Source: Desulfamplus sp. (GTDB lineage Bacteria; Desulfobacterota; Desulfobacteria; Desulfobacterales; Desulfobacteraceae). From it: a DNA stretch of 36,432 bases. A model generated the notes under the pieces. The model searched no databases, was not told the DNA's origin, and saw only the letters and a program-made list of their open reading frames with translations. Where the stretch lies: contig JADGBO010000005.1 of the NCBI GenBank assembly GCA_015231465.1, forward strand, positions 1 to 36,432, read 5' to 3'. The number at the start of each line of letters is the position of its first letter. Position 1 is the first letter of the stretch. Positions 20,688 to 36,375 of the stretch are shown here, piece after piece. The position numbers and the translations under genes were made by a program.

Positions 20688-21461
20688 CTAAAATAGCTTA
20701 ACCGCACCTATGACCACAGCTGCCAAAGTCAAAGACAACCCAAAACTCCATTTCATAAAAAGATCGAGTCTCCTGTTGATCTCCTCGAAACGCTTATCAA
20801 CTTGCTCAAATTTTTTATCAATCTGACCAAACCGTTTGTCAACCTGCTCGAACCTCAAATGCATCTCTTCACGCTGGGATACAAACTGCTTGTCAAACTG
20901 TTCACGCTGGGATGACAACTGTTTGTCAACCTTCTCGAACCTCTGATGCATCTCTTCACGCTGGGATGACAACTGCTTGTCAACCTGCTCGAACCTCTGA
21001 TGCATCTCTTCACGCTGGGATACAAACTGCTTGTCAACCTGCTCGAACCTCTGATGCATCTCTTCACGCTGGGATGACAACTGCTTGTCAACCTGCTCGA
21101 ACCTCTGATGCATCTCTTCACGCTGGGATGCAAACTGTCTGTCAACCTGGTCACGCTGGGATAACAACTGCTTATCAAACTGTTCACGCTGGGATGACAA
21201 CTGCTTGTCAAACTGTTCACGCTGGGATACAAACTGCTTGTCAACCTGGTCGAAACGCCTGTCCATCTGCTTTAAAAACTGATGAAGAAGTTCACGCTGA
21301 TGTTTAAGCTCCTCCTCCACCCGGATGCTCCGCTCCCTAAGTTCTATCTCATAAACAACCGGAGGGCGGCCAAGGCTCATGTCAGTCAACCAGTGGATGA
21401 GATTCTCTTTTATAAAACTCGATATCTGATCAAAATCTTCCTGACACAATGAACTGCTCAT
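20688..21461 (-). CDS. Repeat-rich coiled-coil protein with C-terminal TM
   Basis: Repeats of REEMHQRFEQVDKQLSSQ (18 aa) and REQFDKQLSSQ (11 aa); C-terminal WSFGLSLTLAAVVIGAVKLF. Confidence 0.85.
   Translation of the reverse strand: MSSSLCQEDFDQISSFIKENLIHWLTDMSLGRPPVVYEIELRERSIRVEEELKHQRELLHQFLKQMDRRFDQVDKQFVSQREQFDKQLSSQREQFDKQLLSQRDQVDRQFASQREEMHQRFEQVDKQLSSQREEMHQRFEQVDKQFVSQREEMHQRFEQVDKQLSSQREEMHQRFEKVDKQLSSQREQFDKQFVSQREEMHLRFEQVDKRFGQIDKKFEQVDKRFEEINRRLDLFMKWSFGLSLTLAAVVIGAVKLF
20862..21235. repeat. Coding minisatellite, 54-bp and 33-bp units
   Basis: tgatgcatctcttcacgctgggatgacaactgcttgtcaacctgctcgaacctc repeated with a 54-bp period (starts 20944, 20998, 21052, 21106). Confidence 0.95.
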
Positions 21462-24201: not shown

Positions 24202-24338
24202 TGAGCTGTTCATTAAGTTAAGTTAAGTTAAGTTAAGTTAAGTTAAGTTAAGTTAAGTTAAGTTAATTGCTTTAATTTCTTTGTCACAGTGATTAGGCCG
24301 AGCTGTTCATTAAGTTAATTGCTTTAATTTCTTTGTCA
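24202..24338. repeat. Duplicated 3' end of the ABC-F gene; downstream copy carries a (TTAAG)10 microsatellite
   Basis: Copy 1 tgagctgttca(TTAAG)10 ttaattgctttaatttctttgtca (24202-24286); copy 2 cgagctgttca(TTAAG)1 ttaattgctttaatttctttgtca (24299-24338). Confidence 0.96.
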
Positions 24339-26461
24339 AAAGGGATTGATTTTTCTTCGAGTTCAGCCATGTGTTCTTCAAGGGAATCGAATCGCTGATC
24401 AATGAGATATTGACATTGGACAATCTTTTTCCCCAATTCGGCAATCTTCCCTCCATCCATCCTTTCAGATGCCTCCTGCATGGCCTGATTCAAAAATTCG
24501 AGTTCGGCTTCGGCGGTCTCTATGGCAGCCTCATCGTTTTTTATAGCCCTTTCTATGGGTCCAAGAACCTTTGAACGCTCTTTTACTATCCCGGACCTGA
24601 GCCTGCGTGCCTCCTTTGCAGATATTTTCATCACACCTCTGTCAAATGACGAAGGAACCGATCCCCGGGAAAAACTGTCCTCGCCTTTTTTAGAGGACCG
24701 GGCCTTTACAGCAGACTCGGCTTTTTTACCAGCCTCGACTTTTTTATGAGCATCTTCTTTTCCACAGACCTCGGCTTTTTTATGAGCATCTTCTTTTCCA
24801 CAGGCCTCGGCTTTTTTATGAGCATCTTCTTTTCCATAGGCATCGGCTTTTTTATGAACATCTTCTTTTCCACAGGCATCGGCTTTTTTATGAACATCTT
24901 CTTTTCCACAGGCATCGGCTTTTTCAGCAGCAGCATCTTTTTTTCTAGCGACCTCGGCTTTTTTAGAAAAAGAATCCTCTTCCCATCCCCCTTTGTCAAG
25001 AAATTCCTGATACGTTCCTTCAAAAAGGAAAACCAAGTCATTTTTAAAAACAACAAGACGATTGGCCAGGGAGTGGAGAAGCATCTCGTTATGGGTAACC
25101 AACAACACGGCTCCACTGAAATTGTCCAGGGCCAAAAGAAGTGAATCGCAGGACTCCATGTCAAGATGGTTGGTAGGCTCATCCAGCATAAGGAGATTCA
25201 GGGGACGGGCAAGAAGTTTTGCAAGCATGACCCGGCTCTTCTCGCCGCCGGAGAGAACCGAAATAAGCTTCAGGGCATTGTTTCCTTCAAACATCATGGC
25301 ACCACAAATATTTCGTGCCCTTTGTCTGTCCATGTCGGGATGGGAATAGAGAATCTCCTCCTCAACGGTGGCGTTGGAATTGAGGGAGCTGATATTGGTC
25401 TGCTCAAAATATCCCCTGACAACTCCAGGATTGTACCTTACCTCACCGGAATCGGGGTCAATTTTGCCTGCAAGTATTTTGAGCAGTGTGGTTTTTCCCT
25501 TGCCGTTTTTACCTATAACCGCGATACGATCCCCGGGAGCAACGGTGATGCTGAAATCATGGATAAGAGGGGGGCCATTTTTTTCATGGGAAAAAACCAC
25601 GGACTCGCTATCCATGATCTTCTTACCGGAAAAAAGTTTCTCCCTAAAGGAAAATTCAAGGTTTTCAATCTTTACCAGGCCATCCTTTTTATCCATTTTA
25701 TTTAAAGTCTTGATCCTTGACTGAACAAGACCCGCCAGCCTTGCCTTGGCCCTGAAACGGGTTATGAAAAGCTCCATCTCCCGGCGGCGCTTCTCTTCGT
25801 TAAGTCGTGTTTTTTCGTAAATCTCCTCATCCTGGGCAATCTGTTCATAATATTTTTGTGTCCCACCGGCAATCTTTCTTATGACACACCGATGTATCCC
25901 GGCAATATGGGTTACAACACTGTCCATGAAGTTTCTGTCATGGGTCACAAGGAGTATCTCCCGGGGCCAGGCCCTTAAAAAACCTGAAATCCACCTTATG
26001 GAGACAATGTCAAGGTAGTTGGTGGGCTCGTCCAGAATAAGAAGATCGGGATCCGAAACAAGCACCTTGGCCAGGGTGAGGCGTACCTGATACCCCCCGG
26101 AAAAATCCCCGGGGGAACGCTGCATGTCATGGTCCGAAAAACCGAGCCCGGCAAGTATCTTTTCAGCCTTCCAGGAGTGATCCGATTCATGTTCCGGAAG
26201 ACCCAGCATACACTCCCCAAGAACAGTATCCTTTGTAAAATAGATGTGCTGGGTCAGGTAACCCATGCGGCAATCCCCTGGGATACGGATATGTCCGTCA
26301 TCCGGCTCCTCTTGACCGGTGATCATTCTAAGAAGGGTTGTCTTACCGTGACCGTTTCTGCCCACAAGACCGATCTTCTCACCAGGATTGATCTGGAGGG
26401 ATGCCCCGTCAAGCAGTACCTGACCGCCGTAACTTTTTGAAATGGAATCAATATTGATCAT
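24293..26461 (-). CDS. ABC-F family ATPase with repeat-containing Lys-rich linker
   Basis: Two ABC cassettes: GLVGRNGHGKTTLLRM, FSGGYQVRLTLAKVLVSDPDLLILDEPTNYLD; VIGKNGKGKTTLLKI, LSGGEKSRVMLAKLLARPLNLLMLDEPTNHLD; C-terminal coiled coil. Confidence 0.95.
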   Translation of the reverse strand: MINIDSISKSYGGQVLLDGASLQINPGEKIGLVGRNGHGKTTLLRMITGQEEPDDGHIRIPGDCRMGYLTQHIYFTKDTVLGECMLGLPEHESDHSWKAEKILAGLGFSDHDMQRSPGDFSGGYQVRLTLAKVLVSDPDLLILDEPTNYLDIVSIRWISGFLRAWPREILLVTHDRNFMDSVVTHIAGIHRCVIRKIAGGTQKYYEQIAQDEEIYEKTRLNEEKRRREMELFITRFRAKARLAGLVQSRIKTLNKMDKKDGLVKIENLEFSFREKLFSGKKIMDSESVVFSHEKNGPPLIHDFSITVAPGDRIAVIGKNGKGKTTLLKILAGKIDPDSGEVRYNPGVVRGYFEQTNISSLNSNATVEEEILYSHPDMDRQRARNICGAMMFEGNNALKLISVLSGGEKSRVMLAKLLARPLNLLMLDEPTNHLDMESCDSLLLALDNFSGAVLLVTHNEMLLHSLANRLVVFKNDLVFLFEGTYQEFLDKGGWEEDSFSKKAEVARKKDAAAEKADACGKEDVHKKADACGKEDVHKKADAYGKEDAHKKAEACGKEDAHKKAEVCGKEDAHKKVEAGKKAESAVKARSSKKGEDSFSRGSVPSSFDRGVMKISAKEARRLRSGIVKERSKVLGPIERAIKNDEAAIETAEAELEFLNQAMQEASERMDGGKIAELGKKIVQCQYLIDQRFDSLEEHMAELEEKSIPFDKEIKAINLMNSSA
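24739..24918. repeat. 36-bp coding tandem repeat, 5 units, in the ABC-F linker
   Basis: cttttttatgagcatcttcttttccacagRcctcgg with exact 36-bp period; encodes K(A/V)(D/E)(A/V)(C/Y)GKED(V/A)HK. Confidence 0.96.
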
Positions 26462-26597: not shown

Positions 26598-29500
26598 CTA
26601 AATAAGTGTCGATATAAAGCAGCCTCCCCCTCCTCCATCATCTCCTCCGGAAGCCGGGGGTTCTCCGGGCTCTTCCGGAGGGGGAAGGGGTGTTGACGGT
26701 GGAGTGCCGATGGTCAGGGGGTCGGTAATGATTCCATCGGCCATGCCGTCATCATCGCCTGGACCCCCGTCCCTCAATACAATATAGGCCCGGGTTCTGT
26801 CTGCGGAAAAAGTCACATAATTGAAATACTCGTACCATCCATGGACAGGGCTGTATTTATATATACCGTAGCCCTCTTCCAGGGGCCTGGGCAGATATAA
26901 AATCATGTGGGCCCCGGCACCTTCATCCACCTTTATCCCAATATCCACAAGCCCGTAAATCATATTTTCGGGCCTGCCCCTCCCATCGGTTACAAACTGC
27001 TCATAGCCCGGAACAATGGCGACAAAATCACCTTCCCCGGCAAGGGCAAGGCCCAGGGGCTCCACCCCGTCCACTGTCATAAACGATACAACACCATGGG
27101 GATAACCCTCAATGCCATTGGGCAGGACGGTTATGACGGCATCATCCGAGCTTACATTGCCGGTGTTGTCCGTGATCGTGAGTCTGAAGGTGAACCAGGA
27201 CTCTTCACTTACCCCGGGGGCCACAAAGGTGACCCTGGGAGTGTCTGTATCCGACAAAACCACCCTGGCAGAGTTATCCTCATTGAGCTGTTTCCACTGC
27301 CAGGAGGCTATGCCGTGGATTCCCGGCTCGGACTCCCTTCCATCCAGGATGACGGTGGTACCCGAGGTAACGCTCCCATCGGGTCCGGCATGGGCAAAGG
27401 GGAAGTTCTCCATGCTATCCATAACCGTGACACCGAGGGTGAGGGTGGTGTTTTGGCGATCAACAATCTTGAAGGTGGTCTCCCCAAGGCTCTCGGGTCG
27501 CAGAATGATCTCATCGCCATATATATCCATGGAAGCAATGTGGGGATATTCCCTGTAATAACGATACGGCGGATGCCCGCCGGACACGGCAAGGGAAGCA
27601 TCCTGTCCCAGGAAGAGTGAGATGCGGGAGTTTTCCAGGGTCATGGGCCGGCTCTGGGAGGTGGCATTGATGGTTACGGTTACGGAGACCGAGGATTCAT
27701 CGCCATGACGATCCCTGGCTATGAGGGTGACAGTATGTTCCCCGGGGGAGAGAGTTATGCCGGCCTCCCTTCCACTGCCGAGATATCCATCAATATCCGA
27801 TACCCAGGAGAGGGAACTGCTTGTCAGCTCCCCATCCTCTGGATCCGATGCCCCGCCTTTGAATCTTATTTCATCGGTGTCCTCAAACACGGAACCGGTT
27901 ATTGGAAAAGATATCCAGGGTTCAGGAAGGGAGTTGGCAACGGTTATCAGAATGAAATCCCTCACCGAACCGCCCAGATTATCCGTGGCAGTCAAGGTCA
28001 CAAGATGTTTTCCCGCTGTCAGGGTGTTTATCCTGAAAAGCTCTCCCTGCCCCAGGGGATCGTCCTCAATATTCGATGTCCACACAAGTGTACCATCATA
28101 AAGCCCTCCATCCTCATCGGCTGTCACTTCACCCTGGAACTCAATATAATCATTGAGAAAAAAAGTATCGCCATCCTGGGGCTTCAAAATGGAGACTCCG
28201 GCAATTCCGGCTGGCTCCTTTTCATTTATGGCTATGGTGAGGGTGGAGGATGCCTCGGCACCAAAACTGTCCGTGGCCGTGACGGTCACCACATGGGTTC
28301 CCAATGACAAGGTGCTTATGGTAAACGATGAGTCATATCCCAGGAATCCGTCCTGGTCCGACATCCAAATAACATTTTTGCCACCCAGCGGGCCGTCCTC
28401 ACGGTCATTGATATCCGCTGAAAAGGAGACCTCCTCACCATAATCGAAACTGCTTCCCAGGGGGGGATGGGTGATCACAATCACCGGGGATTCATTACCC
28501 ACGGCAACCGTTATGGAGCTGCTGCTATCTAAACCGTCACTGTCCTTGGCCGTCACCGTTATAACATGGGTTCCCACGGACAGAGCGTTTATGGAAAAGG
28601 ATGTGCCGAATCCAAAGAATCCATCCCTGTCCGACACCCACCTGACAGACTCTCCGCTAAGGTTTCCATCCTCACGATCCGTAACGTTTGCCACAAACAA
28701 AATCATCTCCCCCTGGGAAAAACTGCTGTTGTCCGCAGGCAGTCTTATGAGAATCTCCGGAGATGCATTGCCCACGGTTACCGTTATGGAGCTGCTGCCC
28801 TCAAGACCGGTACTGTCTCTGACAGTGACAGTGACCACATGGGTACCCAGGGAGAGCCTGTCAGTGGTTACCGATGTACCGTACCCCAGAAAACCGTCAC
28901 GGTCCGACTTCCATACCACGGACTGTCCGGTAAGGACACCATCTTCCGGATCCGTGGCACTGGCAAGGAAAACCAGGGTTAATCCCTTTGGATGGCTGCT
29001 GTTGTCCGCCGGTGACGTTATGAGAACCTTGGGTGATGCATTGCCTATAATAACTGTTATGGAGTCACTGCCTGTCTTGCCGAAACCGTCTGTGGCGGTG
29101 GCGGTTATCACATGTGTTCCCACGGTAAGATTGCTTTTGGTAAAGGAGATGCCATAACCCAGGAAACCGTCACGGTCCGATTCCCATATAACCGACTGCC
29201 CGGTGAGTACTCCCTCTTCCGGATCTTTGGCATTGGCCAGAAAGGTGATGATGGCCCCCTGGGGTCTTGTGCTGTTGTCCTGGGGGGAAGTAATCAGCAC
29301 CTCCGGGGCCTCATTGCTGACAGTGACGGTTATGGAGGCACTGGTCTCTTCGCCGTCACTGTCCCGGGCCGTGGCAGTAACAGTATGGGTGCCCACCGAG
29401 AGTCTGCTGTTGGTGAAGGAGATACCATAGCCGAGGAAACCGTCATTGTTCGAGAGCCAGATAATGGACTGTCCCGTCAATATACCGTCTTCCTGGTCAT

Positions 29501-29663
29501 TGGCATCGGCAAGAAAGACAATGGTGGATCTGTAGGAGACGGTGCTGTTGTCGGCAGGAGACCGGATGACAAGGGTCGGAGGTGCGGCAAAGAGGGATGT
29601 AGCCGTCAGGCAGAAAAAGAGCATTGAAAATATAATCAGCTTTTTATTGACAAGATAGAACAT
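26598..29663 (-). CDS. Secreted multi-domain Ig/cadherin-like repeat protein with choice-of-anchor U-like domain and terminal CFI-box-like motif
   Basis: Signal peptide MFYLVNKKLIIFSMLFFCLTATSLFAA; ~7 domains with DREDG..L.G..V.W.SDRDGFLGYG...LS.GTHVVTVTATDS; C-terminal GGGGGCFISTLI. Start refined from the track (CAAAGGAG upstream). Confidence 0.88.
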   Translation of the reverse strand: MFYLVNKKLIIFSMLFFCLTATSLFAAPPTLVIRSPADNSTVSYRSTIVFLADANDQEDGILTGQSIIWLSNNDGFLGYGISFTNSRLSVGTHTVTATARDSDGEETSASITVTVSNEAPEVLITSPQDNSTRPQGAIITFLANAKDPEEGVLTGQSVIWESDRDGFLGYGISFTKSNLTVGTHVITATATDGFGKTGSDSITVIIGNASPKVLITSPADNSSHPKGLTLVFLASATDPEDGVLTGQSVVWKSDRDGFLGYGTSVTTDRLSLGTHVVTVTVRDSTGLEGSSSITVTVGNASPEILIRLPADNSSFSQGEMILFVANVTDREDGNLSGESVRWVSDRDGFFGFGTSFSINALSVGTHVITVTAKDSDGLDSSSSITVAVGNESPVIVITHPPLGSSFDYGEEVSFSADINDREDGPLGGKNVIWMSDQDGFLGYDSSFTISTLSLGTHVVTVTATDSFGAEASSTLTIAINEKEPAGIAGVSILKPQDGDTFFLNDYIEFQGEVTADEDGGLYDGTLVWTSNIEDDPLGQGELFRINTLTAGKHLVTLTATDNLGGSVRDFILITVANSLPEPWISFPITGSVFEDTDEIRFKGGASDPEDGELTSSSLSWVSDIDGYLGSGREAGITLSPGEHTVTLIARDRHGDESSVSVTVTINATSQSRPMTLENSRISLFLGQDASLAVSGGHPPYRYYREYPHIASMDIYGDEIILRPESLGETTFKIVDRQNTTLTLGVTVMDSMENFPFAHAGPDGSVTSGTTVILDGRESEPGIHGIASWQWKQLNEDNSARVVLSDTDTPRVTFVAPGVSEESWFTFRLTITDNTGNVSSDDAVITVLPNGIEGYPHGVVSFMTVDGVEPLGLALAGEGDFVAIVPGYEQFVTDGRGRPENMIYGLVDIGIKVDEGAGAHMILYLPRPLEEGYGIYKYSPVHGWYEYFNYVTFSADRTRAYIVLRDGGPGDDDGMADGIITDPLTIGTPPSTPLPPPEEPGEPPASGGDDGGGGGCFISTLI

Positions 29664-29703
29664 AAAAAAAGACTCCTTTGGAAGAGTAAAGCAGATACCG
29701 TTA

Positions 29704-29809
29704 TATATAGACTTCAATAATAATATTTCAGCAAATATTTTTTTAAGGGCAGCCACAAGGGAGTGCCCCTAAAGTACGATTGCCAATCTCATTATCTGCA
29801 AAACTATAG
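29704..29809 (+). repeat. MITE-like ~106-bp imperfect palindrome, copy C
   Basis: tatatagacttcaataataatatttcagcaaatatttttttaagggcagccacaagggagtgcccctaaagtacgattgccaatctcattatctgcaaaactatag. Confidence 0.87.
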
Positions 29810-29821
29810 AACTATAGCTTG

Positions 29822-31621
29822 CTAAGGCACTGTAATGTTTCTTGATGTGACACCTTTACTCCCCATACTGTCCGTGGCCACAAGGGTAATGGTGTGGGTG
29901 CCGGTTTCAAAGGTTGAAACATCAAAACGAACCGAAGAGGTCATGATGGCGGCACCAGGAGACTCTTCCGGGGTGATCCTGCCCTGGCGGTCGCTTCTGT
30001 ACCACTCCATGTCGTCACTGGTGAGGGAGCCGTCCTCCACATCCCTGGCCTCTCCGTAAAAGGTTACAAATCCCGTTGATGTGGGACTGGTATAGTCTGC
30101 GGCAGGATATGTTATGGAGGGCACCGGCGGGGTGTTGGTGCCGATGTTTATCACCACGGAATCAATGCCCGATGCACCCCATCGATCCTTTGCCTCCAGG
30201 GTGATTATATGCTCGCCGTTGCTCATGGGACGATTGCCCAGGGCCTGGACATTGTCGGTCTTGACATTGAGGCTGGTGCCGGTGCCCAGGAATCCATCAA
30301 TGTGGGAGGTCCATTCCAGGCTCTCTCCAAAGAGAGAACCGTCTTCCGTATCTGCTGCTGTTCCCTGGAAATTGATCCACTCTCCCGGAGCAAAAACACG
30401 GCACAGGGTGTTGTTTTCGGGGCAGGTCTCAGGAGGATTGGATATTTCCGCGACGGGGCTTGTGTTTTTAAGATTTACGATGATGCTGGCCTGACCTGTT
30501 CCTGCGGATCCCGTGGCCCTGAGATAGATGGTGTGTTCCCCCTCTTTCAATGGCTCATAGTTCAGGGCCTGGACACTTCTTGTGTAAAGTTCATGGGTAC
30601 TTCCGGTGAAAAGCAGGCCATCCTTGGAAGATATCCACTGGAGGTTCTCTCCTGTTATGGGGGTTCCGTCGAAATCCGTGGCTTTTCCCACAAAATTTAT
30701 GGTATCCCCGGCACTGGCATCGTAGGTGGCTCCCTGGGCCGAGCTGTCTGCAGGGCTTGTAATCTGAACCCTGGGGGCGGAAGCATCGGCTCCCACTGTA
30801 ATTATTATAAAGGCGTTGGTGGAGCTGCCCTTACTGTCCGTCACCGTGAGGGTTATGGTGTGTTCGCCGGATGCAAGCACATTGGTGGATACCGTGCCTC
30901 CGGTTCCAATGGCTCCGTTCAAGCTGGAGTGCCATACAAGGTAAGAGTCGGTCAGATCCCCATCCTCGGCATCGGTTCCGGTTCCCTGGAATGTTATGGT
31001 CTCTCCCACGTTAAAGGAGACATTTGCTGCCGGGGCTGTTATGGCCGCCACCGGAGCGGTGTTCTTTGCCTGGGGGTCTTCATCTCCCACAGTGATGGTA
31101 ACCGAGTCCGAATCCACAGTATTACCGGCGGCATCAAGAAGGGTAAGAGTTATCACATGGGAGCCTGCCGTCAGGGTATTGAGATTGAGGTTGGCTGCCG
31201 TGCCAATCTCACCGTCCCTGCTGGATGTCCAGGAGTATGTGTAGGCCTCGTCTTTATCAGGATCCACAATCCTGCTGACAAATGAGACAAAATCCCCCTC
31301 AAGATAGACCTGCTTGTTGGTGGGAACTACGATGGAGACACCGGCAGGATTAATCTTCTCTTCCACCGGTTTGGTGCTGTCCCCGGAATCTCCGCTGGTG
31401 GCGACAATGGTGGCAATGCCAAACAAAAATACCATAAGCATCATGGTTCTCCTTGCAAAGCCTGATATAATGCCGGAATTCAGAGTGCCTGGAGCATCTT
31501 TGAGCGGTTCAATTTCCAATCTTTCTATATTATCCAATCTCTCTATAGTATCCAATCCCTTTGTCATGTCCAATCCTTTTTTCATGTCCCTTTTTTGCAT
31601 GTCCCTCTTTTTCATGTCCAA
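29822..31621 (-). CDS. Ig/cadherin-like repeat surface protein, paralogous to its neighbour
   Basis: Repeated VSITVGD...ITAPAANVSFNVGETITFQGTGTDAEDGDLTDSYLVWHSSLNGAIGTG... modules; hydrophobic segment RRTMMLMVFLFGIATIVATSG after a ~55-aa N-terminal extension. Confidence 0.85.
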   Translation of the reverse strand: MDMKKRDMQKRDMKKGLDMTKGLDTIERLDNIERLEIEPLKDAPGTLNSGIISGFARRTMMLMVFLFGIATIVATSGDSGDSTKPVEEKINPAGVSIVVPTNKQVYLEGDFVSFVSRIVDPDKDEAYTYSWTSSRDGEIGTAANLNLNTLTAGSHVITLTLLDAAGNTVDSDSVTITVGDEDPQAKNTAPVAAITAPAANVSFNVGETITFQGTGTDAEDGDLTDSYLVWHSSLNGAIGTGGTVSTNVLASGEHTITLTVTDSKGSSTNAFIIITVGADASAPRVQITSPADSSAQGATYDASAGDTINFVGKATDFDGTPITGENLQWISSKDGLLFTGSTHELYTRSVQALNYEPLKEGEHTIYLRATGSAGTGQASIIVNLKNTSPVAEISNPPETCPENNTLCRVFAPGEWINFQGTAADTEDGSLFGESLEWTSHIDGFLGTGTSLNVKTDNVQALGNRPMSNGEHIITLEAKDRWGASGIDSVVINIGTNTPPVPSITYPAADYTSPTSTGFVTFYGEARDVEDGSLTSDDMEWYRSDRQGRITPEESPGAAIMTSSVRFDVSTFETGTHTITLVATDSMGSKGVTSRNITVP

Positions 31622-31665: not shown

Positions 31666-31725
31666 TATCTATATTGTTATCACCCTCATCTATATTATCA
31701 TCACAGGCATCTATATTATCACCCG
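31666..31725. repeat. 20-bp tandem repeat x3 covering the fliK-like stop codon
   Basis: tatctatattgttatcaccc / tcatctatattatcatcaca / ggcatctatattatcacccg. Confidence 0.88.
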
Positions 31726-33219
31726 AAGCCCGTCATCTTCCTGCCGGCAAATATCATTTATGAAAACATCCTCCCTCAAAACATCACTATCTGCAACCTG
31801 ACAGGTTATAGTACGAACCATGTATTCATGTTTCTGCAATCTTTGGGTTAAATCCGGCAGCATTTTTGTCACAAAATCTGCTGTATCCCTGTCTTCCACC
31901 ATAAAAACACCGGATATATGATTTTTAAGTACTGAAAAATCAGCCCTTAACGGACCGAGAGCAGACATGGTTAAAAACAGGGAAACCTTAAGAATACGGT
32001 TCTCCGAATCAGATTTTTTTTCATCCCTGGAGCCGAGGTCAAAAAAGAGTTGACCAAATGAGAAGCTGCCGTTGTAAAAAAGCGGAAAAGGCAGAAGATA
32101 CTTTCCTGTATCGGATAGATGGGAGTTAAGAACTTGAAGCTTTTCAAGGTTTTGGGCAAACTTTCCAAGGGCATCCATTTCACCCTCCCGGGCATCATCC
32201 CCCGGGGAGAGGGCCTGAAGTACAGCGGCCTTCATATCTTCTTTCATGGTCTGTCTGAAAATATCTTCTTTCATGGTCTGTCTGAAAGGCTGTGAGAATA
32301 TCTTTTCATCCCGAATTTGCACCCCGGATTCATTGGGCATCTGTTTGACGGAAGATTGTTCTGCATGGGATTTATAACTATTAATCTCACCCCCTACTTT
32401 TTCAATAAAGGCCGACATCTTTTTTTCAAGAAGGAGCCCCCCATTCTCAAGCAATCTATGCAGAAGAAGGGGATCAAGTTTTTCAGACTTCAGTGCAACA
32501 TTATACAACAAGTCCCTCAAAGAGTTCATGATTGTTTTTTCAGCCCCAGGTCTCTCTCCAGACTCAACATCTCCAGGATCAACAGGCAAATTTTTTGAGA
32601 TGACAGGATTTGACAACATATCTGCCAATTGCCTGAATCCTTGTAAGGGAGAACTCCTAAGGAGATAGTTCAATGCCGAACCCATGGATATGTTTTCCGC
32701 TTTCAATGGCGTGTCCATAGTTACGGTTTCCCCTTTCAATGCCCTGCTCATGGGTACTTCCCTTTTCAATGGTGTGCCCATAGATGCGTTTTCAGCTTTC
32801 AATGCCGATCCCATGGATACTGTATCTGTTTTTAACCTCCCAGGCACATCTGTATTGGATGGTAAAGGACTATCCAATGGCACAGGGGAGGCACCGCTAC
32901 GGGGGTTATGGGAGAGAATGGTCAGTTTCCCCTGGTCAGTCTGCTTCAAGCTTATTATGTCACCTTTTTTAATATCGACATCAGGATTGATATCTGCAAG
33001 AACCTTACGCCCCTGGATAAGAAGAAGTGCCGATGAAGATGAATCAATGCCATGCTTTGGTAAAATATCTCCCGCCTTCAAAACCCCTTGTGCCGGAGAA
33101 AAAAGCTTCAGCACTTTGGCCTGGAGAACCCGCCCCTCCCCCGAAGACTGTATTCCTGATGCCCCAGGGGATTTTTGAGACTTTAAAATATCAGACAAAA
33201 TGGGTACCAACCCTTTCAT
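31711..33219 (-). CDS. FliK-like flagellar hook-length control protein (C-terminal Flg_hook-like domain)
   Basis: FPLFYNGSFSFGQLFFDL...ILKVSLFLTMSALGPLRADFSVLKNHISGVFMVEDRDTADFVTKMLPDLTQRLQKHEYMVRTITCQV; low-complexity N-terminal half; operon context. Confidence 0.65.
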   Translation of the reverse strand: MKGLVPILSDILKSQKSPGASGIQSSGEGRVLQAKVLKLFSPAQGVLKAGDILPKHGIDSSSSALLLIQGRKVLADINPDVDIKKGDIISLKQTDQGKLTILSHNPRSGASPVPLDSPLPSNTDVPGRLKTDTVSMGSALKAENASMGTPLKREVPMSRALKGETVTMDTPLKAENISMGSALNYLLRSSPLQGFRQLADMLSNPVISKNLPVDPGDVESGERPGAEKTIMNSLRDLLYNVALKSEKLDPLLLHRLLENGGLLLEKKMSAFIEKVGGEINSYKSHAEQSSVKQMPNESGVQIRDEKIFSQPFRQTMKEDIFRQTMKEDMKAAVLQALSPGDDAREGEMDALGKFAQNLEKLQVLNSHLSDTGKYLLPFPLFYNGSFSFGQLFFDLGSRDEKKSDSENRILKVSLFLTMSALGPLRADFSVLKNHISGVFMVEDRDTADFVTKMLPDLTQRLQKHEYMVRTITCQVADSDVLREDVFINDICRQEDDGLRVII

Positions 33220-33971
33220 CAGAACTGATTCTCCATCTTTATGAACTTCTCTTTAAGGTTGATTACCAGTTGAACCTCTCCCTGGGGCATAGATAATTTC
33301 GATGCAATCTCCCCGGCATCCATTCCCCGCTGGTAAAGCTCCACTATTTTCCTTTGCTGATCAAAAACATCATCCTCAAATGGATTTCCCATTGAAGTCT
33401 GACGCATCGCGAAATCACGCTCCTTTAAGCCGGATATGCTTTGAACTCCTGAAAAACCAATATTTCCCGATGACGGCAGCTTAGATGATACCCCATCTGA
33501 CGGCAAGTTTGACGATGCTCCATCTGACCGAGGGTATCTAAATCGTTCCTGGCCATTCAGAAGAACCTCTGCCCTGGAGAGAAGAAGGTTTATGCTGATA
33601 ATACGGGAATCAAGGGATTCGTTCAACTCATGTATAAGACGTTTTTTCTCTTTAATCTGGGAATCAAATGATGATGCTGCGGATTCAGCCCCTTTCACGA
33701 GAGGATCCAAAAGTTCTATTATGTCCTGGGCTGCCCGGTCAACCATCTGAACCGCTGATTTATCTGCGAGAGCATCGGTTTCATGTTCCAGCTTTGACAA
33801 TGTTTCGTCATATATCGAAGCAGCCATATCATTGAAAAATCCCTTTTTCCAGGCAGGGTGGGAATATGTTTTCTTCAACTTCCTCACAAGGGCCCAGACA
33901 ATAACAACAAGAATAAGTTCAATGAAAAGATGCAGCACAATCCAGAATTCAATGGAGAAAAGTCTCATCAT
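33219..33971 (-). CDS. DUF2802-like membrane-anchored protein
   Basis: N-terminal TM; C-terminal QQRKIVELYQRGMDAGEIASKLSMPQGEVQLVINL (DUF2802/HTH-like); TGATG and ATGA overlaps with neighbours. Confidence 0.7.
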   Translation of the reverse strand: MMRLFSIEFWIVLHLFIELILVVIVWALVRKLKKTYSHPAWKKGFFNDMAASIYDETLSKLEHETDALADKSAVQMVDRAAQDIIELLDPLVKGAESAASSFDSQIKEKKRLIHELNESLDSRIISINLLLSRAEVLLNGQERFRYPRSDGASSNLPSDGVSSKLPSSGNIGFSGVQSISGLKERDFAMRQTSMGNPFEDDVFDQQRKIVELYQRGMDAGEIASKLSMPQGEVQLVINLKEKFIKMENQF

Positions 33972-34285
33972 GCAACAGTATCAAGAAGATTGCCGGGCAG
34001 ATCAGGAGAATTGGATCTGGATTTTGACTCTTTGGTATTCAACTCTTTTCTCTTTTTTCTTCGGGCTGCCCTCCTCTCCCTTTCCCGCCTGTCCGGATTC
34101 ACGTCATTTTTAAGGGCTCCCTGATTCTCCGAGGACTGAACTGTGGTCTGCTCAACAGCGGCTCTGGTGGTCTGCTGCTGCTGGAGATGCTCCTGGTCCG
34201 GCTGAACCGGCTTAAGGTGATGGGTTGCATCATGGGCCCTTCCCGACTGCTGGATAACAATATTGTGACCTGGTATTGTCGTCAT
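33968..34285 (-). CDS. Small Arg/Lys-rich protein of the flagellar-type cluster
   Basis: MTTIPGHNIVIQQSGRAHDATHHLKP...RRERERRAARRKKRKE; start placed at the ATG following the G11 tract. Confidence 0.65.
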   Translation of the reverse strand: MTTIPGHNIVIQQSGRAHDATHHLKPVQPDQEHLQQQQTTRAAVEQTTVQSSENQGALKNDVNPDRRERERRAARRKKRKELNTKESKSRSNSPDLPGNLLDTVA

Positions 34286-34368: not shown

Positions 34369-36375
34369 TTATCCAGTTATAAAAACCACGAAGGTCACCT
34401 TATCGACTTTCTTTCCAGGCAGGGCCATATCCAGCTCCTTTTTTACAGCCTTCACAATATCATCACCGGTAAGGCGTACCCCGACATCTTCCCTGAGTAC
34501 ATTTTTAATGGCTTCATAAATTATATGCCTGTAGAAAGGGGTACGGGCGGTTATCTCATCCCCGACACTCTTGTAGGAATAGTCTATGGCAATGTCTGCC
34601 GCGACATAGGTGGTAACTTCGTCCTGTTCCGGAGTGAAAACCACAAAATCTTCCAGAACTATTTTACCGGGCTGAAAAATATCCTCTTCCTCAATTTGCA
34701 CGTCAACCTTTTCCTCATGGATATCTTCCTCATCCTTAACCGTTGGCTGAAGAAGTGAGGTATCATAGGAGGGGGGCTCATCAGCCAGCCTGTCCTTCAA
34801 CAGAAAAAAATAGATTCCTGCTGTAGCACCGCCCACGGCAATCATGAAGAGAATTACCAGAATAACGATCCTGACAATGGGACTTTTTACCCTCTCTTTT
34901 TGCTCTCTAAGGTTCTGGTCGCCAAGCTGGGCAATCTCATCCCCTGGAGCGTCTCCGGCCTCCAACGAGTCGTCCGGTTCAAGGAGAACCGGCCCGGAGT
35001 CATCTTCTTCACCCCCAGGGTCAATGTCATCGGTGGAGAAATCGGAAGATATATCCAGATCCTCATCCTGTTCCATATCGGCCAGCAGATCTTCATCTTC
35101 CTCATCGGTTCCGGCCAGAAGAGCATCAATGTCATCCTGGGAAATGAGATCACGGCCGCCGCCTCCGGCACCATCATCAACGGGACCGGGCTCCGAATCT
35201 AAGGGCTGGGCATCGTCTTCACTTAAAAACTCATCAATATCGTCACTGGAGAAGCTCTCCAGATCATCATCGCCGTCTTCGGCATCCCCGAGCAGGGCAT
35301 CAAGATCGGCCTGGGAGAGGTCTTCGGCATCATCAAGTGCGAATTCATCATCGCCCTCCCCATCGGTCAAGTCAACGAGAAATTCATCTTCATCCTGGCC
35401 GTCCATCTTTCTTCGGGGGTCATCCCTGGTTCCTGCATCATCAGAAAGGTCAGTACCAGGGGAATCTCCATCATCGGGCCCGGATGCAAAAAGATCATCC
35501 AGGTCATCATCGGATTCAACGGACAGATCATCGTCATTATCCGATGAGAGAAGCTCATCAATGTCATCCTGGGTGACAAGGCAATTTTCAATATCCCAGG
35601 CCTGGGATTCATCTATAGGCTGATCATCATCGTCGTCGTCGTCGTCATCCCGGGATGCACCGGAAAAGTCCCCGGGTCCATCTTCGTCAACCAGGGGGTC
35701 TTCTTCCAAATCGACCTCCAGATTATCAAGATCATCCATGGACTCGGTGGACATGAGCTTGTCAATATCATCCTGGGAAACAAGATCAAAATCATCCTGT
35801 TCCCCATCGAAATCATCGGCATCTCCGTCCGGGAGATCATCTTCCGGGATTTCGGGGTCATCCTCTGGGATTTCGGGGTCATCCTCTTCAAATGAGGATG
35901 CATTGAGAAGTCTGTCTATGTCATCCTGGGAGAGTTCACCAAGGTCATCATCGGCTCCCGAAAGAGCATCATCAACATCTTCATCGGCTCCTGAAAAAGC
36001 ATCTTCATCATCGTCATCGGCTCCTGAAAAAGCATCTTCATCATCTTGGGTGGAGGATGCATTCAAAAGATTGTCTATGTCATCCTGGGAGAGTTCACCA
36101 AGGTCATCATCGGCTCCTGCAAGAGCATCATCAACATCGTCATCGGCTCCTGAAAAAACATCTTCATCATCGTCATCGGCTCCTGAAAAAGCATCTTCAT
36201 CATCTTGGGTGGAGGATGCATTCAAAAGATTGTCTATGTCATCCTGGGAGAGTTCACCAAGGTCATCATCGGCTCCTGAAAGAGCCTCTTCAGCCTCTTC
36301 AATGGAACCTGCACTTAAAAGCTTGTCAACGTCATCCTGGGATATGAGAGTGTCGTCATTTGTGGTGTCCGGCAT
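34369..36375 (-). CDS. FliL-like protein with long acidic N-terminus carrying nine SQDDIDxLL motifs
   Basis: TM IVILVILFMIAVGGATAGIYFFLL; C-terminal FliL-like domain (GKIVLEDFVVFTPEQDEVTTYVAADIAIDYS...REDVGVRLTGDDIVKAVKKELDMALPGKKVDKVTFVVF); repeated LSQDDIDNLLNASS motifs. Confidence 0.88.
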   Translation of the reverse strand: MPDTTNDDTLISQDDVDKLLSAGSIEEAEEALSGADDDLGELSQDDIDNLLNASSTQDDEDAFSGADDDDEDVFSGADDDVDDALAGADDDLGELSQDDIDNLLNASSTQDDEDAFSGADDDDEDAFSGADEDVDDALSGADDDLGELSQDDIDRLLNASSFEEDDPEIPEDDPEIPEDDLPDGDADDFDGEQDDFDLVSQDDIDKLMSTESMDDLDNLEVDLEEDPLVDEDGPGDFSGASRDDDDDDDDDQPIDESQAWDIENCLVTQDDIDELLSSDNDDDLSVESDDDLDDLFASGPDDGDSPGTDLSDDAGTRDDPRRKMDGQDEDEFLVDLTDGEGDDEFALDDAEDLSQADLDALLGDAEDGDDDLESFSSDDIDEFLSEDDAQPLDSEPGPVDDGAGGGGRDLISQDDIDALLAGTDEEDEDLLADMEQDEDLDISSDFSTDDIDPGGEEDDSGPVLLEPDDSLEAGDAPGDEIAQLGDQNLREQKERVKSPIVRIVILVILFMIAVGGATAGIYFFLLKDRLADEPPSYDTSLLQPTVKDEEDIHEEKVDVQIEEEDIFQPGKIVLEDFVVFTPEQDEVTTYVAADIAIDYSYKSVGDEITARTPFYRHIIYEAIKNVLREDVGVRLTGDDIVKAVKKELDMALPGKKVDKVTFVVFITG

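Follow-up and report, generated by a model that had tools for sequence, protein, structure and literature searches.

Phosphorylated CheY (CheY-P) is generally thought to act on the flagellar motor via a single motif per FliM, and we know of no settled role for the cytoplasmic side of FliL. The EIDAL motif of FliM binds CheY-P (PMC6946799, PMC9126983), and the C-terminus of CheZ, which in chain 1kmi_Z reads SQDQVDDLL, uses a CheY face shared with FliM (PMC3774744). Canonical FliL proteins, for their part, have cytoplasmic tails of 2-28 residues (PMC10127578). The window analyzed in this work (the whole stretch of 36,432 nucleotides) ends in a gene whose product combines a FliL-type domain with nine FliM-type motifs. 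Domain and motif are each known, and it is their combination as an array that is new; a search of the PMC literature, which leaves most subscription papers outside its scope, retrieved no report of a FliL with such an array.

The array protein and its FliL domain

The gene that closes the window (34369-36375, minus strand, as are all coding features below unless indicated) encodes an array-bearing FliL paralogue, here FliL2, of 668 aa counted from ATG. A Pfam search of this protein returned no family, the gathering score of PF03748 not being reached; the same family gave a weak match in three of 14 homologues (best E 6e-4), and NCBIfam produced a FliL match below threshold only (E 7.8e-5). A profile built from 14 relatives nonetheless recovered FliL among solved chains (9hmf, E 3.7e-4; 7sgn, E 0.056), and AlphaFold (23 relatives) predicts a transmembrane helix and a beta-beta-alpha-alpha-alpha-beta domain. 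The eleven best Foldseek matches of this model (E <= 0.001) are all FliL, with TMt of 0.60-0.83; 7sgn, 9hmf, 6ahp and 6ahq are the best matches in the PDB, and stomatin SPFH domains rank next. Profile matches and predicted fold together lead us to regard the window protein as a FliL-domain protein, the second FliL of its genome. The FliL-type C-terminal domain put forward in the original prediction is thus borne out, though Pfam misses it.

The model places a single transmembrane helix at residues 498-531 (34783-34884), with KERVK just before it (N-in), and the FliL (SPFH-like) periplasmic domain at residues 563-668 (34372-34689). Residues 1-490 (34906-36375) form an acidic cytoplasmic tail, predicted to be disordered and made up of Asp and Glu to 41%, which carries the array. 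The original coordinates, 34990-36375, hold good for the N-terminal ~460 codons and leave out the transmembrane helix and the FliL domain, both of which lie at 34372-34905. The protein shares with FliL the single N-in transmembrane helix, the periplasmic domain and a flagellar operon, and differs from it in being a paralogue below Pfam detection, encoded after fliA, whose tail spans ~490 residues, far beyond the 2-28 of the canonical protein (PMC10127578), as had been anticipated; because of this tail, we class it as a FliL-domain paralogue. Its identity as canonical FliL is ruled out, as the place next to fliM is held by another FliL: a canonical, short-tailed one (PF03748, E 1.2e-11) adjoins fliM in relatives. 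In the host genome itself, another FliL-like frame is found on C19. Frames antisense to the acidic tail (e.g. 34844-35623, plus strand) were discarded as genes, being mirror images of Asp codons.

The nine motifs start at residues 12, 43, 96, 149, 200, 268, 354, 376 and 412, and follow the pattern hydrophobic-[ST]-[QS]-x-[DE]-[ILV]-D-x-[LF]-[LM]. Motif 1 (ISQDDVDKLL, 36316-36345; predicted helix 13-21) is followed by two copies of LSQDDIDNLL, motif 2 (36223-36252; helix 44-52) and motif 3 (36064-36093; helix 97-106), by motif 4 (LSQDDIDRLL, 35905-35934; helix 150-159) and by motif 5 (VSQDDIDKLM, 35752-35781; helix 201-209). Motif 6 (VTQDDIDELL, 35548-35577; helix 269-281) is a central variant within a family-conserved segment, DES(Q/E)A..DCLITQ(D/E)..D. 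The remainder comprises motif 7 (LSQADLDALL, 35290-35319; helix 356-363), motif 8 (FSSDDIDEFL, 35224-35253; helix 377-385), which is degenerate here and reads SQDDIDGFL in congeners, and motif 9 (ISQDDIDALL, 35116-35145; helix 413-423), next to a conserved DEEDEDLL. Seven of the nine fit a strict version of the pattern, of which residues 1-490, shuffled 20,000 times with composition preserved, yielded no instance. AlphaFold, run on the full-length protein, leaves the tail disordered (pLDDT between motifs mostly 31-50) apart from short helices, nearly all of which lie on motifs; all nine motifs are covered, and none of 20,000 random placements did equally well. The predicted array therefore stands at nine; the degenerate FSTDDID (446-452), also proposed at the outset, does not extend it to ten, since aligned orthologues lack it.

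Motifs 2-4 lie within a 159-bp tandem DNA repeat (35894-36301; 2.6 copies, 94% match), so this part of the array is, on the evidence of the DNA, a recent duplication. The alignment identifies the first, central and last motifs (1, 6 and 9) as positional orthologues throughout the family. Orthologues also share another short conserved stretch, D(Q/R)V(V/I)LE, past the array and ahead of the transmembrane helix; its counterpart in the window is GPVLLE.

Conservation and gene neighbourhood

The host belongs to the genus Desulfamplus, is a magnetic sulfate reducer, and counts D. magnetovallimortis, Desulfobacter, Desulfobacula and Desulfospira among its relatives. The protein is present in 57 of 86 genomes of the family (Desulfobacteraceae), and its place is fixed, both there and in many of the order's other families: flhF-flhG-fliA-[array FliL]-~100 aa-DUF6115-fliK. 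Orthologues carry from 1 to 16 motifs. Across 300 motif instances from 42 proteins, in which Q was a scored position and is treated as fixed, the D/E, I/L, D/E/N and L positions are nearly fixed (array consensus SQDDIDxL(L/M)), whereas the composition of the spacers differs by family, Asp+Glu ranging from 21 to 41% and Ala+Pro+Gly from 9 to 37%. Synonymous codons vary freely among 457 motif instances while the motif residues hold, which argues that selection acts on the peptide. What homologues retain is the SQ-x-[DE]-[IL]-D-x-L-[LM] core, not mere acidity, and the spacers are free to diverge; together with the FliL domain recognised by profile and fold, though not by Pfam, this passes two of the refutation tests set by the original prediction. 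At the DNA level, a motif scan of four closed genomes returned, apart from the arrays and FliM, only IS66-type transposases and matches that are probably spurious; the reversed pattern gave almost no matches in the same scan. A phylum-wide search with a broader profile yielded, among its better matches, mostly short frames of FliL length and a few long ones (about 420-450 aa), so that arrays may occur beyond the order.

Downstream of the array gene, the window encodes a ~105-aa basic protein (MTTIPGHNIVIQQSG..., 33968-34285), a usual neighbour of the array FliL with no significant Pfam match, followed by another usual neighbour, a DUF6115/DUF2802 membrane protein (33219-33971; DUF6115, E 4.2e-8), and by a FliK-like protein (31711-33219; Flg_hook, E 3.1e-7). 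The ~100-aa protein begins MTT(I/V)xxxN, and is found between the array FliL and DUF6115 genes in most clusters read. Some lineages have a motif-free FliL2 at the equivalent place (L157, L158, L162, L310, L311). In one order relative (G227:C14, L310:5305-6156), the motif-free FliL2 has instead an N-terminal tandem repeat, F-[ST/A]-G-N-E-L-D-E-[TV]-x-S-D-E, and the FliL2 of G147 (L311:12402-13232) has another repeat, rich in Gly, Trp and Asp.

Repeats are also encoded elsewhere in the window. Beside the flagellar genes, two large neighbouring ORFs (26598-31621) consist of ~90-aa units (PADNSS...ITVGN), and similar large ORFs occupy the matching position in G006 (L072). A 257-aa protein (20688-21461) combines a tandem coiled-coil-like repeat (FEQVDKQxSSQREEMHQR) with a C-terminal hydrophobic segment, and an ABC-F-like ATPase (24293-26461) bears a KKADACGKEDVH repeat insert close to its C-terminus.

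Candidate partners of the array

The motifs have both the sequence core and the predicted helix of the FliM-type (EIDAL) motif, and the class to which they had been assigned is one with documented CheY binding, in FliM (PMC6946799, PMC9126983) and, as the SQDQVDDLL of CheZ, which fits the array pattern, in a CheY ligand outside the C-ring (PMC3774744). With the N-terminal motif of FliM, which binds CheY-P and FlhG, the array shares a hydrophobic-S/T-Q-x-D/E-I/V-D-x-L-L core and a predicted short helix; it differs in its copy number (up to 16, nine here) and in its location on a membrane protein, FliM being a C-ring protein. The FliM N-terminus of the same clade (MSEILSQDEVDSLL) has SQDEVDSLL where the array has SQDDIDxL(L/M), with E in FliM and D in the array at position 4, so that affinity or partner may differ from those of FliM. 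CheZ, in turn, is a soluble phosphatase bearing the motif once; the array protein lacks a phosphatase domain, and the local CheY gene is accompanied by CheX.

The host genome encodes a CheY 56% identical to that of E. coli, and its closest solved chain is CheY3 of Vibrio cholerae, which binds FliM (PMC3774744). A CheY 51-59% identical to the E. coli protein is found in 52 of the 57 family genomes with the array protein, and beyond the family nearly all array carriers have one too; the equivalents of T87, Y106 and K109 are kept in all four genomes examined. In relatives, cheY lies in an operon PilZ-cheX-cheY-sigma54 activator gene (e.g. L276, G002). Among most array-bearing genomes of the order, CheY identity is 76-100%, falling to 72% in a few.

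Given a motif core shared with FliM and CheZ and the presence of CheY in 52 of 57 carriers, we favour, if by a modest measure, the reading of the array FliL as a stator-tethered, multivalent docking array for CheY-P. The FliL domain would hold this second FliL in the membrane, presumably at the stator, and the flexible acidic tail would display its nine FliM-type motifs in the cytoplasm. Each motif, folding as a short helix, would dock one CheY-P at the face used by FliM, and the array would thereby keep a membrane-tethered pool of CheY-P near the C-ring. This pool might either buffer or raise local CheY-P at FliM, the sign of the effect being the least certain step; we lean towards a role as local buffer or antenna.

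Four genomes (G122, G120, G227 and G147) speak against CheY docking, for they have CheY and yet a FliL2 without motifs. The five family genomes that have the protein and lack CheY include two with decaying flagellar clusters (G048, G020) and two fragmented assemblies (G017, G075), and these four were discarded as natural CheY knock-outs. In G001 (80% complete) flhF, flhG, flhA and flhB are intact, CheY was not found and the array is reduced to two motifs; outside the family, G157 has one motif, and CheY was not found there at E 1e-25. These two genomes are too small a number to settle the partner. Arrays do have fewer motifs where CheY is absent (Mann-Whitney P = 0.017 over 30 related, hand-entered genomes, not corrected for kinship), a trend that is weak since, of the five CheY-less family genomes, two have decaying flagellar clusters and two are fragmented.

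A competing reading, absent from the original prediction and in our judgement unlikely, though the best placed of the alternatives, is that the array docks the MinD-like ATPase FlhG, and not, or not mainly, CheY. By retaining FlhG at nascent or finished basal bodies, the array would limit its free amount or govern the timing of C-ring assembly and the flagellar number. In the intact clusters examined, flhG, fliA and the array gene are adjacent, with flhG two genes upstream, but the order flhF-flhG-fliA is common in flagellar clusters and such adjacency is hence a weak argument. In monotrichous bacteria, FlhG acts on the FliM N-terminus (PMC12826062); in Bacillus and Geobacillus, residues 1-36 of FliY are all that it needs (PMC12327844). 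The FliM motif is, moreover, retained in genomes without CheA; it is therefore not diagnostic of CheY, and does not separate CheY from FlhG. Against FlhG as the partner, intact flhG genes sit beside motif-free FliL2 (L157, L158, L310), from which it follows that FlhG does not depend on the array, and the array of G001 is down to two motifs despite intact flhF and flhG. Residues R207 and F215 of GtFlhG had no safe placement onto the local FlhG.

Two further readings are less likely than docking of either CheY or FlhG. The array might act as a decoy or brake, its motifs, whether occupied or free, touching another part of rotor or stator (FliG, FliN, MotA) and tuning torque through the FliL N-terminus independently of CheY. 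FliL N-terminal regions are able to inhibit motor output, and interactions of FliL with MotA, MotB, FliG and FliF have been reported (PMC10127578), but the inhibitory canonical tails are of 2-28 residues and without the motif, and EIDAL-type motifs have no known partner of this kind; we hold this reading to be improbable. Neutral repeat growth of an acidic low-complexity tail with functionless motifs, which the 159-bp repeat and the spread in copy number might suggest, is highly improbable, given motif residues fixed between families while codons and spacers vary, predicted helices that coincide with motifs, and conserved positional motifs 1, 6 and 9.

Possible consequences for the flagellar switch

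Were CheY-P docking to hold, a motor-bound protein with up to 16 motifs would alter noise, gain and the effective CheY-P concentration at the switch, and would provide a physical route from stator number to CheY-P binding. Work in E. coli has reported, by other means, an effect of stator number on CheY-P binding (PMC8440544). More tentatively, and with somewhat less confidence than we place in docking itself, the array proteins might constitute an order-wide class of stator-tethered, multivalent CheY-P antennae, in which motif number, from 1 to 16, would tune an added layer between the chemotaxis pathway and the switch, and local CheY-P would be coupled to stator occupancy. The natural spread in motif number makes such a dose effect directly testable.
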